A stretch of DNA of 64,000 nucleotides from Lachnospiraceae bacterium. GTDB taxonomy: Bacteria; Bacillota; Clostridia; Lachnospirales; Lachnospiraceae. Shown in pieces: positions 23,381 through 53,983 of the stretch; within the stretch, counting starts at the first letter, position 1, and each line of letters opens with the position of its first letter. The position numbers and the translations under genes are program-made. The stretch spans positions 1 through 64,000 of the forward strand of contig JAEEGQ010000105.1 of the NCBI GenBank assembly GCA_016280395.1, in the 5' to 3' direction. Under the pieces are notes generated by a model that was not told the origin of the DNA, made no database searches, and saw only the letters and a program-made list of their open reading frames with translations.

Positions 23381-23412
23381 AAGACCGGACAGGAATGCCT
23401 GCCCGGTCTTTT
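23381..23412 (+). terminator. Terminator of the zinc operon
   Basis: AAGACCGGACAGG at 23381-23393 pairs with CCTGCCCGGTCTT at 23398-23410 around AATG, with one mismatched pair, and continues into TTTT. A partial repeat of the left arm (AAGACCGGACAAGG) lies upstream at 23349-23362. Confidence 0.88.
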
Positions 23413-23501
23413 ACTGTTGATGTGTCAAGGCAGTGTATTGTAATATTTCCTCCGTCGTGCTAAAATACAATAAATGCGGTCTGCAAAGGGGAATATATGA
23501 A

Positions 23502-25460
23502 ATGAATGCTGATAAGATAACCCAAATATACGAAAAACCCGGCAATACACTGCTTGGCATGAACGGCGGCTGTCCGGAAAGCCCGGACGGTAAGAAGCTT
23601 GTTTATGCCTACAAGGCGGATCTTTCGGCACCGGAGACGAGCATCATGCTCTGCAACAGTGACCTCACCGGCCACAGGGAGGTCTTTAAGGTAAATTGCG
23701 GGAACCACAACGGTCCTTCAGCATCCTTTATCGACAACAGTCTTATCGTGTTTAGGGACGGGGAAAACGGGCACCCGGTGTTTCGCATCCTTGACACTGA
23801 TACAGGTGAGGTCAGATACAAGATCGTCGCAAAGGAGAGCCATTGCGCGGAGAACGGGATGTATCCGTTTTCGCTTTCAGCTGACATGATGGGCCTAAAT
23901 CCCGACTATCCCGAGATAGACAGGCCCGGTATCTATATTCTTGACGTGCATAAGGGCACGATACGGTGCGTTGTTGAAGCAAAGGAGATAGAAAAGCTTG
24001 TTACCGACGCCGGGTACACGGCTGATGAACGTACGGCTTCGGTCAGCCATGTGCAGCTTAACCCTTCGGCAACCGCAGTCATGATGCGGATAGGCGTACC
24101 TGAATGCCCTGTGTTTGGCGCGCTCGGCTGCGTGGACCTTGATACGGGGAAAACACACCTTATCCCGGACAAGCCCGTGCACCAGCTTTGGTTTGACGAC
24201 GATACTTACATGGCCACAAGACAGTTCTGTAACTATGCTGACGGCAATAAACATATTGAGATGGAGACAAGTTACCTTGCCCGCTTTACTAAGGACGGTG
24301 AGGAACTTGAGGTCCTTGGCGGGATAGCCAACCATATGGACGGAAGCCCCGACCGCTCCATGTTTGCGGGAGACCGCTGTTATCCGGGTTTTTCGACGGA
24401 TGTGTATCTGTACAGGCGGGGCGACAAAAAGCCTGTCGCAACTTTTGAGATGCCGCAGAACGAGGATACCGTCTGGAAGAAGAAGGTACATGCGAACCCT
24501 TCGTTCTCGCGCGACGGAAAACGCCTGTATTTCAACAGGATACGGGAGGACGGCGGATGCGATGCGGTGTTTGCAGATATCGAAAAGTATGCGCAAAAGA
24601 GAAAGGCCGGTCTTGTTATGGAGGGCGGTGCGATGCGCGGCATGTTCACCTGCGGTGTTATAGATGTGCTGCTTGAGAATAAGATCGTGTTTGACTGTGC
24701 CGTGGGTGTTTCCGCAGGTGCCACTTTTGGCCTGAATTATGTTTCAAGACAGCACGGAAGACCGTTGCGTTACAATAAAAAATACTGTAACGACAAGCGT
24801 TATGCGAGCATCCGCTCGCTCATTACCACGGGCGATATCTACAATGCGAAATTCTGCTATGACACACTGCCGTTTGAGCTCGACAAATGGGATATTGACG
24901 CGTTTTACGATAATCCCATGGATTTTTACTGTGTAGCGACTGATGTAAAGACCGGTAAGGCAGTTTATCACAAATGTTGCAACAAAGATTCGACTCCGGA
25001 AGGTGAGGATATCAAATGGATCCGGGCTTCGGCATCTATGCCGCTTGTATCACGGCCTGTCGAGATAAAAGGCAGGCGGTACCTTGACGGCGGAATGTCG
25101 GATTCGATACCGTTAAGATTCATGGAACGCAAGGAATGTGACAGGATCCTTGTTATCGAGACGCGTGAGGCAGACTATGTAAAGGAACCGGCAAAGCACC
25201 GGCTCCTGACAAAACTGCTTCTCATGAAATATCCCAAAATGGCAAAGGTCCTTGCAAAGCGACACATCATGTACAATAAAGAAAAGAGATATGTCGCAAA
25301 GCGGGAGAAAGAGGGGAAAGTCTTTGTTATAAGGCCTGAAGCTCCGCTGAACATCGGCGCTACCGAAAAGAACCCCGATGAGCTGCAAAGAGTATATGAT
25401 CTCGGGAGAAAAGCAGCGCTTGAAAACCTTGACAGGCTGAAGGGGTATCTTGGAATGTGA
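23502..25460 (+). CDS. Propeller-like domain fused to patatin-like phospholipase
   Basis: A 652-residue protein with no signal peptide, so probably cytoplasmic. The ATG at 23502 follows AAGGGGA (23486-23492); an upstream in-frame ATG (23433) is less likely. Residues about 1-365 are rich in strand-turn motifs (SPDGKKLVYAYKA, SFSRDGKRLYFNR), like PD40/oligogalacturonate-lyase-type beta propellers. Residues about 368-652 form a patatin-like lipase: oxyanion loop GGAMRG (375-380), nucleophile Ser404 in GVSAGA, and the dyad Asp529 in DGGMSD. Patatins of the YjjU type usually have only the catalytic part, about 280-300 residues. The propeller could bind a partner or carbohydrate. The gene stands between two promoters and is likely monocistronic. 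Confidence 0.82.
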   Translation: MNADKITQIYEKPGNTLLGMNGGCPESPDGKKLVYAYKADLSAPETSIMLCNSDLTGHREVFKVNCGNHNGPSASFIDNSLIVFRDGENGHPVFRILDTDTGEVRYKIVAKESHCAENGMYPFSLSADMMGLNPDYPEIDRPGIYILDVHKGTIRCVVEAKEIEKLVTDAGYTADERTASVSHVQLNPSATAVMMRIGVPECPVFGALGCVDLDTGKTHLIPDKPVHQLWFDDDTYMATRQFCNYADGNKHIEMETSYLARFTKDGEELEVLGGIANHMDGSPDRSMFAGDRCYPGFSTDVYLYRRGDKKPVATFEMPQNEDTVWKKKVHANPSFSRDGKRLYFNRIREDGGCDAVFADIEKYAQKRKAGLVMEGGAMRGMFTCGVIDVLLENKIVFDCAVGVSAGATFGLNYVSRQHGRPLRYNKKYCNDKRYASIRSLITTGDIYNAKFCYDTLPFELDKWDIDAFYDNPMDFYCVATDVKTGKAVYHKCCNKDSTPEGEDIKWIRASASMPLVSRPVEIKGRRYLDGGMSDSIPLRFMERKECDRILVIETREADYVKEPAKHRLLTKLLLMKYPKMAKVLAKRHIMYNKEKRYVAKREKEGKVFVIRPEAPLNIGATEKNPDELQRVYDLGRKAALENLDRLKGYLGM

Positions 25461-25516: not shown

Positions 25517-25545
25517 TTGTAAACTCTAAACCACTATGTTATAAT
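25517..25545 (+). promoter_or_regulatory. secG promoter
   Basis: TTGTAA at 25517-25522 and TATAAT at 25540-25545 with a 17-bp spacer, 30 bp upstream of the secG start. Confidence 0.8.
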
Positions 25546-35274: not shown

Positions 35275-35324
35275 GTTTTCTGTTCTTAAGGGTGAAAGCC
35301 CAATAAATGTGGTGCGGAGAGAGC

Positions 35325-37457
35325 ATGGCAACCTGTAAGAAATGCGGCAAGACAATCGAAGACGGGTTAGATTACTGCATGGAATGCAGCTCAAAGAAAG
35401 AAGCAGACGAGTCATATCTTGACAGTCTGCTTAGTTCTGTTTCCAACAATACGGAACCTGCGGTAAAGAAACCGCGCGTGCAGACCACAGCGATGCCGGT
35501 AATGCCTAAGTTCCTCGCCAAAAAGAAGATCAAAGCAGAGAATTACAACATCCTTTCAGACAAGGATGATGACGAATTCCTTGATAACCTGTTTGATTCC
35601 GACGATATCCCGGATTTCCCGGTTGATGTTGCCGCTTTTGATTCCGAGTTCTCAATGTCACAGGGCGAAGGTTCGGATGATGAGGAGGAACTTGTTCCGT
35701 CTCCGGAATCCCGGGCGGGATACAGCAGCAGTGATGACGAGATGGAAATGCTGCTCGGAACGCAGGCTGCAGGTATCGTAAGAAATACCGCAGAGGCAGA
35801 GGATGATCCGGAAGCCGGTTATTCGGGAGAAGATGCCGGGGCGGCCGAAGAAAACGGGGAAGAGGCCTTTAACGGTGTTGAGATGGCGAGTCTTGACATG
35901 CCGGACACCGGAATGTCCGAAGAAGACAGCCTTCTTGCCGACCTTCTCGATTCAGTCGGCGAAGACACGGAGCGCGAAGCACCCGCTGACGATCCCATCG
36001 AAGCTCTTAACGAAGCCTTTGCGATGGCAGGGGAAAGTACGGAAGATCCGGGCGAAAATATTGATTTCTTCAGCACTAACGCTACTCAGGAAGAAATAGA
36101 GAATGCAAAGAACATTCCGGAGCCTGAAAGCGAAAACGGTTCACGGGATGAAGGCAAAGGTCCGGATGAAAGCCTTGCAGATCTTGGCATTGACATACTT
36201 GACGAGTCAAATGCCCTTAATCTCACTCCTGAAGACGCGGAAGATCTCGGAATCGAGATAGTGGATGAAAACAATGTTTCAGGCCTTGCAAAAGAACAGG
36301 AACCCGAACAGGAACCTGAACTCATACCTGCCGAGATACCCGGAGAAGAAGCAAATACACAGAGAAGATCCAAGGTAAAGCTTGTCGATGACGGTGATGC
36401 ATCGGGCGGAGATGAGGATATTCTTGAATTCTGGAATCAGATCAACGGTGATGCTCCGGATGGAGCACCTTCCGCAAATGTTGTTCAGGAGAGGCCCATG
36501 TCGCCGGAAGAACAGGCGGAGCAGGATGAGCTTGCGGCTCTGCTCTCGGGTCTTCCCGGAGTGGACGAAGGCGTTGATACAGAAGGCGTAGGCGAGGTTG
36601 AAGCGCCTGTTGAAGAAAAGCCCAAGAAGAAGAAAAAAGGTTTCTTTGCAAAAATCTTTGGAAATGTCAAGGAAGAACTGACAGAGGAACAGCTTGAAGC
36701 CAAAAAACAGGCTGCCCTTGACAAGCTTGACCGTGACGAGGCAAAAGCAGAACAGGACAAGGTCGATAAGGAAGAAGCAAAGAAAGCCAAGGCAGAGGCT
36801 GCAGCAGAGGCCAAAAAGGCAAAAGCTGAGGCTGCGGAAGCCGCAAAGAAGAAAAAAGAAGAAGACAAGAAGCTCAAAGCCGATAAAAAGGCTGCCCTTC
36901 GAAAAGCTCTCGTTGAAGAGATCGAAGAAAACGAAGGAAAGATCAATAAAGTCGGAGCTTCGCTTGTATTCCTTGTTTTCGCGGCAGCGCTTGCGTTCGT
37001 GGCGATCGGTACCAGCATTTACACCTACAGGATCGCAATCGAGCGTGCCCAAAAGGATTTTGACGACGACAAGTACGAAGAAGCCTATAATGACATCTAT
37101 GGTATTGATGTTAAGGAAGAGGACCAGACTCTTTATGACCAGATCATGGTCGTAAATTATGTGAATACCCAGCTTCTTGCGTACCTGAGATATTCGGGGC
37201 TTGATATGGACAACGAGGCTTTAGACTCGCTCCTTAAAGGCCTCAAACGTTACGAAAAGTACATTTATTACGCTGCGGAGCTTGAAGTTGCCGAGGATTT
37301 CAATTTCCTGAAGGGCGAGATACTTCAGGCACTTGAGACAAGGTTCAACCTGAGCGAGACCGACGCGTATAATATAATCAACAGCGAATCCCAGGAACTT
37401 TACGCAAAAGCCGTCAGGGAGGTTGTTGAAAAAAATCCGAGAGTTGATGGAGAATAA
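35325..37457 (+). CDS. Zinc-ribbon, acidic/coiled-coil single-pass membrane protein
   Basis: A 710-residue protein beginning at ATG 35325 (GGAGAG upstream). Residues 4-21 form a small zinc ribbon with C4-x2-C7 and C18-x2-C21. Residues about 25-420 are acidic and low in complexity, probably disordered, with blocks such as EDAEDLGIEIVDENN. Residues about 430-530 are Lys/Ala/Glu rich (KKKKKGFFAKIFGNVKEEL, then AKAEAA-type units), a long helix. One membrane helix is at about 542-566, and about 145 residues outside end in a helical repeat-like domain. No family recognised. The end is 1 nt from the hisH start. It could link a cytoplasmic partner to the membrane; a chemotaxis link with CheV upstream is speculative. 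Confidence 0.8.
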   Translation: MATCKKCGKTIEDGLDYCMECSSKKEADESYLDSLLSSVSNNTEPAVKKPRVQTTAMPVMPKFLAKKKIKAENYNILSDKDDDEFLDNLFDSDDIPDFPVDVAAFDSEFSMSQGEGSDDEEELVPSPESRAGYSSSDDEMEMLLGTQAAGIVRNTAEAEDDPEAGYSGEDAGAAEENGEEAFNGVEMASLDMPDTGMSEEDSLLADLLDSVGEDTEREAPADDPIEALNEAFAMAGESTEDPGENIDFFSTNATQEEIENAKNIPEPESENGSRDEGKGPDESLADLGIDILDESNALNLTPEDAEDLGIEIVDENNVSGLAKEQEPEQEPELIPAEIPGEEANTQRRSKVKLVDDGDASGGDEDILEFWNQINGDAPDGAPSANVVQERPMSPEEQAEQDELAALLSGLPGVDEGVDTEGVGEVEAPVEEKPKKKKKGFFAKIFGNVKEELTEEQLEAKKQAALDKLDRDEAKAEQDKVDKEEAKKAKAEAAAEAKKAKAEAAEAAKKKKEEDKKLKADKKAALRKALVEEIEENEGKINKVGASLVFLVFAAALAFVAIGTSIYTYRIAIERAQKDFDDDKYEEAYNDIYGIDVKEEDQTLYDQIMVVNYVNTQLLAYLRYSGLDMDNEALDSLLKGLKRYEKYIYYAAELEVAEDFNFLKGEILQALETRFNLSETDAYNIINSESQELYAKAVREVVEKNPRVDGE

Positions 37458-51490: not shown

Positions 51491-51547
51491 CGGATATCGC
51501 CGTTATGTACGGAATGATGAGTTTTATCCAACGAAATGGGGATTTAT

Positions 51548-53983
51548 ATGACTTACTTTACCTACTTTTTTCTGGACAAAGAGAAGGACATTATTGTTAA
51601 TCTTTACAAGGACCTTGAGAAGCTCTCCTTTGAGCTTGAGACCCCGAACCACCACTCGGGGAACCTTATCCGGAACCTTGCGAAGCTTTGCGGGCTGCCG
51701 CTTAGCACAAAGGAAAACGGGATGCTCGTGATCCGCGGTGAGGTGCCATGCTTTGTGGACGGGAGTAACAGCGAGGTCTATGTTTTTATGCTCGGAAACA
51801 TGAAAGCAGCGGAAGTTTATCCGGACGGGACCGTCAAACAGGAAGCTTTTATTCCCGCGATCTCCAAAACGCTGATGTCCCAGACGAGAGATTACAGCCT
51901 GGAGCTCGGAAAGACCATATTCAGGTCTTATATCCCAAAAGAACTTAAGTTCCGATCGGATCTGCATACCCACATGAACGGCAACCTTGCACCGGATGTG
52001 ATGATAGCCCTTGGAATACGGCACCAGATAAGGTATCCCCTGTATTACGTGAAAAAACTGGGGCTAAAGCTCAGTGCGCTTCAGGAAAGCGTTGTCCTCC
52101 AGCAGCGTGAGAAGGTCGCAAAACAGTTTGTAAACTCGGGGCTTGCCGGGAAATACCTTGCCCGCAAGATTGACGACGAGACCTTTATTAATTTCGCGGA
52201 CCTGATCTTAAATAACCTCGACAATGCCGAGGAAAACATAGTAAAGATCAGGGGATCCCTGTCCGTGCTAAAAGACGGTCAGGCTGTTTTTACAAACCTT
52301 GAAAAGGTGTACCTTTACAGGTATGTTTTCGCAAAAGGCCGTGAAAGCGAGGAAAAGACAGAGATACACAGCGTTTCGGCTATCCCTGACGAGGACGTAA
52401 AGAAAACCCTTGAACGGATGTTAAGAGACTCTGAAACTAAGGAATACCGCGACAATACCATCTTCCAGGACAAGCTTCTCTGGATAGCAAGGGGCTACAA
52501 GGCCCAGGGGATAAGCTATGTCGAGATAGCGGATACAACGCTTGTGAAGAAGTATGAGTCCGTAAAGATGCTGACGGAAGTGCACGAGATAATGCCAAAG
52601 ATCTACAGGGAAACGGGCGTGATGATCAGGTTCCTCGCAGCCATCAGGCGTATCCCACTCACGATCGTTAAAGACAGGATAACACCGTCGGACTATATAA
52701 CAAAAAACCTTGAAGTGCTAAAGGCTGTGGCTGTCGACCCTTATGTTTCGGGTTGCGACTTTGTGGGCGAGGAGATAACGGATATCATCACGCTCAAGCC
52801 TGTTTTTAAGGAGATCGCAAAGATAGCGGCGGAGGACCCCACCTTCGTTATCCGCATTCATGCGGGCGAAAACGACAGCACAAAGGATAACATAGCCCAC
52901 AGTATAGAGTGCGTGAAGGACGGGCTAACAAAGGGGCAGAAGATGCCTCTTGTCCGGCTCGGACATGGGCTTTATACTTATGGATTCAGATCTGAAAAAG
53001 GCAGAAAGGTGCTGAAAGAACTTAAGGAGAACAATATCGTCCTTGAGTTCCAGATTACATCAAATGTGCGCCTCAACAACCTGAATTCCCTGGAAGGCCA
53101 CCCGCTGAAGGCGTATCTTCGAAACGGCATCGCCTGTGTGCAGGGTACGGACGGTGCGGCGATGTACGGCACAAGCCCTATTGATGAGCAGCTTACGCTG
53201 ATGAACCTGCTTGACCTCTCGTATGATGACCTGAAAAAGATGAAAGATGCGGAAAGTGCCGTGATCGAACAGGGACAGGAGGCTTATTCACAAAAGAAAT
53301 ACCGCCTGAAAAAGCTGCAGGGGGACCGTGATCTTGAGGAATTCCTGCTTTCAAGGATGACGCCTGCGGATTCTGCGGTAACGCTGAAGGGCGTGAAAAA
53401 ACTGGATGCCGAATTTGAACTTAAGGACATGATAGAGGAACTGCCCTGGGATCTTACGCCGGTTATCGTGATGGGCGGAAGCTTCAATACCGACAAACGC
53501 ACTACAAAGGTGACGGCAGAGGGCACAGAACAGCTGGACAGGCTTATGGAAAGCCTTGATCCGTCCGAGGTATGCTTTGTGATAGGTCATAAGATCGCGG
53601 GCTATGAGAAGCATATTGTCGAGAATAATTCCAAGGGTTTCAGGATATTTGCCGTTGTGCCTTCGCTTATCACAAAACAGGAGAAGAAAAGGCTGACGGA
53701 TGCAAAAGTTGCTGTCAGGGTTTCGACGGAGAGCGAAGGCACCGGGATTTACAAGAGTTTTAATTACGAGATCTTCGAGCGAAGACCGTCGGTTGTCATA
53801 GCCTTTGACGGAAACTCCGCCGCCGCGAATATGATCCAGGAGGCAAAGAACGGGAAAGGCAAAGCAAAGATCCTTGTATACAGGCACACCAAAGCGCTTC
53901 GGGAGAAGGCCGGATCCCTTGAAGGATATGTAAGCTTTTTTGACAGCGAAAACCCTTTGGCAACGGTATTGATGGGTCTTTAA
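51548..53983 (+). CDS. Adenosine-deaminase-like protein with putative SLOG-like C-terminal domain
   Basis: An 811-residue soluble protein; ATG 51548 fits GGGGA at 51538-51542. Residues about 1-130 are an unassigned domain. The deaminase part runs from about 138: metal ligands H140-x-H142 (DLHTHMNG), H438 and the proton-transfer E441 (IRIHAGE), H473 (LGHGL) and Asp535 (QGTDGAAMYGT). The usual Asp-Asp pair of adenosine deaminases is Asp-Gly here. H140 to Asp535 is about 115 residues longer than normal, pointing to an insertion near 180-300. Residues about 620-811 look Rossmannoid (VIVMGGSFNTDKRTT, CFVIGHKIAGYEKHI), perhaps a SLOG-type nucleotide-binding fold. Possible roles are purine salvage or a nucleotide-based defence effector. 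Confidence 0.75.
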   Translation: MTYFTYFFLDKEKDIIVNLYKDLEKLSFELETPNHHSGNLIRNLAKLCGLPLSTKENGMLVIRGEVPCFVDGSNSEVYVFMLGNMKAAEVYPDGTVKQEAFIPAISKTLMSQTRDYSLELGKTIFRSYIPKELKFRSDLHTHMNGNLAPDVMIALGIRHQIRYPLYYVKKLGLKLSALQESVVLQQREKVAKQFVNSGLAGKYLARKIDDETFINFADLILNNLDNAEENIVKIRGSLSVLKDGQAVFTNLEKVYLYRYVFAKGRESEEKTEIHSVSAIPDEDVKKTLERMLRDSETKEYRDNTIFQDKLLWIARGYKAQGISYVEIADTTLVKKYESVKMLTEVHEIMPKIYRETGVMIRFLAAIRRIPLTIVKDRITPSDYITKNLEVLKAVAVDPYVSGCDFVGEEITDIITLKPVFKEIAKIAAEDPTFVIRIHAGENDSTKDNIAHSIECVKDGLTKGQKMPLVRLGHGLYTYGFRSEKGRKVLKELKENNIVLEFQITSNVRLNNLNSLEGHPLKAYLRNGIACVQGTDGAAMYGTSPIDEQLTLMNLLDLSYDDLKKMKDAESAVIEQGQEAYSQKKYRLKKLQGDRDLEEFLLSRMTPADSAVTLKGVKKLDAEFELKDMIEELPWDLTPVIVMGGSFNTDKRTTKVTAEGTEQLDRLMESLDPSEVCFVIGHKIAGYEKHIVENNSKGFRIFAVVPSLITKQEKKRLTDAKVAVRVSTESEGTGIYKSFNYEIFERRPSVVIAFDGNSAAANMIQEAKNGKGKAKILVYRHTKALREKAGSLEGYVSFFDSENPLATVLMGL

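Follow-up and report, generated by a model that had tools for sequence, protein, structure and literature searches.

Why would a bacterium hold a beta-propeller and a patatin lipase in one polypeptide? The question is raised by a gene of a gut or rumen Lachnospiraceae bacterium, found in a 64,000-nucleotide stretch of contig JAEEGQ010000105.1 (hereafter, the window). The answer that we consider best, with a probability of roughly one half, is that an intracellular propeller similar to the oligogalacturonate lyases of family PL22, binding and probably cleaving uronides, is tethered to a patatin acyl hydrolase and that the two activities are coupled.

Domain layout of the fused gene

The features are as follows (window coordinates, strand, description, basis).

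23381..23410, no strand assigned, strong 13-pair hairpin separating the fused gene from its upstream neighbor, probably a terminator (pattern match)
23438..23466, + strand, promoter-like site TTGTAA-17-TAAAAT before the fused gene (pattern match)
23502..25460, + strand, fused gene for a PL22-like beta-propeller and a YjjU-type patatin, 652 aa (ORF; in-frame counterpart in L003, 84% identical)
23502..24593, + strand, predicted propeller domain (residues 1-364), a relative of oligogalacturonate lyase (PL22) (AlphaFold pTM 0.87; Foldseek best 3pe7, 3c5m; hhalign against the PL22 profile)
24048..24497, + strand, span of the conserved pocket residues H183, H227, H278, H330 and N332 (all three MAFFT strategies)
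24594..24602, + strand, junction, residues 365-367, QKR (alignment with free-standing proteins)
24603..25457, + strand, predicted patatin acyl-hydrolase domain with DUF6363, residues 368-652 (Pfam; motif positions)
24711-24713, + strand, Ser404 codon (motif position)
25086-25088, + strand, Asp529 codon (motif position)
25517..25545, + strand, promoter-like site TTGTAA-17-TATAAT, extended TG, for downstream secG-rnr (pattern match)

The reading frame opens with an ATG at 23502, the same start as in the fused protein of L003, and its stop codon ends at 25460. Its second half carries the Pfam domains Patatin (residues 371-539, E 5e-20) and DUF6363 (577-650, E 1e-22), with the motifs GGAMRG (375-380), GVSAG (402-406, with Ser404) and LDGG (528-531, with Asp529). 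The patatin elements that a first-pass annotation of this DNA had picked out, GGAMRG, GVSAGA and DGGMSD, lie at 375-380, 402-407 and 529-534. Like YjjU-type patatins (PF01734 plus DUF6363), the protein has the full catalytic motifs (a Gly-rich oxyanion loop, G-x-S-x-G and D-G-G) and a C-terminal DUF6363, and its identity to free-standing Pseudobutyrivibrio copies reaches about 75%; unlike them, the fused protein has an N-terminal propeller. The second half is predicted to be a YjjU-type patatin, with Ser404 and Asp529 as the conserved residues of an acyl hydrolase. Such patatins are widespread, and to our knowledge they have no known physiological role.

The protein is probably cytosolic, since no obvious signal peptide was seen by eye. 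In the alignment, the junction takes up about three residues between the end of the free-standing propeller and the start of the free-standing patatin. The full-length model had a pTM of 0.60, at which the placement of the halves relative to each other is not firm.

Occurrence of the fusion

A genome collection with one genome per species (84,980 species) was scanned, and the reading frames of the 61 relatives returned were sorted. One further fusion was found, in a Lachnospiraceae assembly from yak rumen (L003, the same record as G003). It is 84% identical, in frame, has the same junction and is directly followed by secG and rnr, as in the window; its host is a second species of the window organism's genus. 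Each of the other loci encodes just one of the two, propeller or patatin; only at L059 are both present, as neighboring genes. Candidate propeller remnants upstream of the L008 and L049 patatins, and a candidate patatin after the L023 propeller, were rejected as tblastn extensions through stops or chance. Within the genus, the fusion is present in the window's own genome and in G003 and was not seen in the remaining searched genomes, which are 80-88% complete. Among Lachnospiraceae, two of about 250 genomes carried it when searched with the whole protein and two of 397 when searched with the propeller profile, the two samples overlapping.

Two proteins that were once separate have been genuinely fused in this gene. 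The first-pass annotation had proposed the fusion from the sequence, and the ORF, the Pfam domains, the propeller model and the in-frame L003 counterpart all agree on it. The same architecture, which that annotation had suggested looking for elsewhere, occurs in L003 with the shared secG and rnr, and its remark that YjjU-like patatins normally lack such a domain is borne out by the sorted relatives and the Lachnospiraceae searches. It had also raised the joining of two genes by a sequencing or assembly error, and both carrier genomes are indeed fragmented assemblies, probably metagenome-assembled; this is practically refuted because two diverged species have the same junction, reading frame and downstream genes. 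No description of the fusion or of the propeller family was found in a limited library of the literature: both domains are of known kinds, but neither the family of the propeller nor its pairing with a patatin seems to have been described in the literature searched.

Fold and kinship of the propeller

For the first half, Pfam and NCBIfam gave no family except PD40, which matched one propeller blade (332-354, E 2e-7). The AlphaFold model of residues 1-364, built on 19 relatives, was an all-beta propeller (pLDDT 87.6, pTM 0.87) with seven blades, counted by hand in the strand list, in line with the first-pass suggestion of a beta-propeller. Against solved structures, Foldseek placed the oligogalacturonate lyases 3pe7 and 3c5m at ranks 1-3 (E 5e-12 to 5e-11, TM 0.68/0.66), and the other propellers among the matches listed had a TMq of at most 0.58. 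They were also the best propeller matches in the full-length structure search, ranked after PlpD and CapV. PL24, PL25 and PL42 are propeller lyases of uronides as well, using paired histidines, and PL42 has been described as seven-bladed (PMC10951650). Unlike PL22, these families were not among the Foldseek matches listed for the propeller.

A profile search of PDB sequences with the propeller gave no match, and only the fold search found relatives there. Comparison of the propeller family with a PL22 profile in hhalign scored 97.5% (E 5e-12), against at most 7.3% in controls with shuffled or reversed columns, and 84.9% (E 6e-6) against three true oligogalacturonate lyases only. The shallow propeller family gave nothing against one PL22 protein; the signal came after sequences were added on both sides. 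The propeller profile also reached L101, which Pfam places in PL22 (E 7e-15) and which forms a sequence bridge. PF14583, the Pfam family of PL22, was not matched by the fused protein or by 19 propellers at E<=1, and the distant member L079 reached only E 0.035. Blades 1-3 align poorly with PL22, so that clear homology is confined to the propeller's second half, where the two are collinear. Together, the model and the profiles suggest a seven-bladed family that has no name as yet and is akin to the oligogalacturonate lyases of PL22.

Two further proteins of about 400 aa (L104, L105) are weak matches to the propeller profile, propeller-like and without a Pfam family. A relative nearer to PL22 (L142:524-2547) lies beside what appears by eye to be a rhamnogalacturonan acetylesterase.

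Pocket residues and selection

Under all three MAFFT strategies, H183, H227, H278, H330 and N332 of the fused protein fall on H192, H242, H287, H353 and H355 of PL22 (numbering recovered from the 3pe7 sequence). His242, His287, Gln350, His353, His355 and Arg217, which we take to be the PL22 active site with its metal ligands, are only partly retained: His242, His287 and His353 are kept, His355 is replaced by Asn332, Gln350 is not kept, and Arg217 falls on Arg196 in one of the three alignments and is unmatched in the other two. The chemistry and metal use of the propeller may therefore differ or be lost, and the domain should not be filed as PL22. PL22 itself is an intracellular single-domain enzyme that completes the breakdown of pectin fragments; it has the probable location in common with the fused protein, which differs in carrying a patatin.

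Among 17 unfused relatives, 128 positions are invariant; the window copy keeps 126 of them (the changes are L197I and I259L) and every pocket histidine, and the L003 copy departs at eight. Between the two fused copies, dN/dS was about 0.07 for the propeller and about 0.05 for the patatin, where dS is near saturation (about 0.05-0.08 over both halves). Given this low dN/dS and the retained invariant positions and pocket histidines, decay of either half is unlikely. Separately, the propeller half had diverged less from L003 at synonymous sites than the patatin half had, most of all over the first 60 codons; this contrast was not significant at four-fold sites (p 0.09).

The replaced pocket residues could fit a propeller that serves as a non-catalytic sensor or docking module, binding a uronide or a protein and switching or aiming a patatin that acts on membrane lipid. 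Patatins elsewhere are ligand-gated, and CapV and CapE are among the structural matches of the patatin half. However, conserved positions extend over the full propeller, His-rich pocket included, as they would in an enzyme, and free-standing copies with no patatin nearby show the same pattern; we regard this role as rather unlikely. The first-pass idea that the propeller aims the lipase at a polysaccharide, protein or membrane signal holds in so far as a polysaccharide signal is possible; generic aiming is too vague for a PL22-related domain with a conserved ring of histidines that also occurs free-standing, in some genomes by pectin genes.

Genomic setting and unfused relatives

The fused gene lies among housekeeping genes (znuABC, secG, rnr, smpB), with a cyclophilin and a two-component system also nearby. 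The upstream hairpin and the promoter-like site before secG suggest that it is probably transcribed alone, although these are pattern matches only and the promoter-like sites (4 found, 3.0 expected in shuffles) were no more frequent than chance. Elsewhere in the window, a 716-residue protein (35307-37457) had no Pfam match, and an 815-residue protein (51536-53983) had an adenosine-deaminase match only at residues 322-570, the rest being without a Pfam family.

The window genome encodes a pectinesterase and two KduI, has several matches to PL11 and at least four strong ones to unsaturated uronyl hydrolases, and is therefore equipped to use the products of a uronide lyase; no canonical PL22 (PF14583) was found in it. 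In L003, the fused gene has a GH30-type glycosidase upstream of it.

In other Clostridia, the propeller is a free-standing protein of about 360 aa. A pectinesterase or rhamnogalacturonan lyase adjoins it in four genomes: a pectinesterase is directly downstream in L026, a PL11 rhamnogalacturonan lyase is directly upstream in L036, and homologues of that lyase are beside it in L099 and L100. These PL11 neighbors may go back to a single inherited arrangement. The neighbors of most unfused copies are unrelated genes (DAHP synthase with prephenate dehydratase, DegV, ABC transporters). The gene after the closest unfused propeller (L004:4308-6827, 77%) lies within 10 bases of it and encodes a GDSL-type lipase/acylhydrolase whose start resembles that of a lipoprotein. 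Free-standing patatins occur in tandem with the zinc-transport genes znuABC (L039:4992-8421) or about 1 kb from them (L070); in the window, znuABC likewise lies upstream of the fusion.

At the unrelated locus L059 (4998-7089), the gene immediately after a free-standing PL22-like propeller encodes a patatin, and no other YjjU-type patatin was found in that genome. In a 71-sequence tree, the two fused patatins grouped together (100/98) as sister to the Pseudobutyrivibrio patatins, and the L059 patatin was far from them, in another lineage; propeller and patatin thus came together twice, once fused and once as neighbors. One neighbor pair among about 25 loci would arise by accident a few percent of the time by our rough estimate, and is suggestive only.

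The L059 arrangement also bears on whether the halves work independently, the stop between two neighboring genes having been lost and the fusion kept as harmless. Such a neighboring-gene state does exist there, the junction is no more than about three residues long, and within the samples covered the fusion was seen in a single genus. Against this, the fusion has persisted while two species diverged to near saturation at synonymous sites, purifying selection acts on both domains, and propeller and patatin came together twice, in different patatin lineages; mere linkage seems to us improbable but not negligible.

An anti-phage role, which the first-pass annotation had floated by analogy with CapV and CapE of CBASS, is very unlikely: only the patatin fold is shared, CapV and CapE have no propeller and need a CBASS partner gene, no nucleotidyltransferase, cyclic-nucleotide synthase or other CBASS or defense-type partner was found near the fused gene, and the fused protein had no match in PADLOC or in the viral contigs searched.

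A possible role in uronide metabolism

In the coupled uronide-handling protein that we favor, the propeller would bind, and probably cleave, short pectin-derived uronic-acid oligomers inside the cell, in its His-lined central pocket. The fusion would set the acyl hydrolase beside this domain, where it might remove ester groups from the oligomer at the same site, or lipid hydrolysis might be tied to uronide supply. The replaced PL22 residues, the poor alignment of blades 1-3, the unrelated neighbors of most unfused copies and the housekeeping setting of the fused gene count against this reading.

A more specific version is tentative, and we think it rather unlikely: the protein could be a bifunctional enzyme in which a new family of propeller lyases, with a changed metal site of two His and one Asn, acts together with a patatin that de-esterifies pectic oligomers or links membrane lipid turnover to uronide supply. 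If that were true, a patatin would be part of carbohydrate breakdown. An uncharacterised propeller family gains a concrete, testable relation to pectin-oligomer lyases and a natural connection to YjjU-type patatins; should the halves cooperate, knowing what one acts on would point to the substrate of the other.
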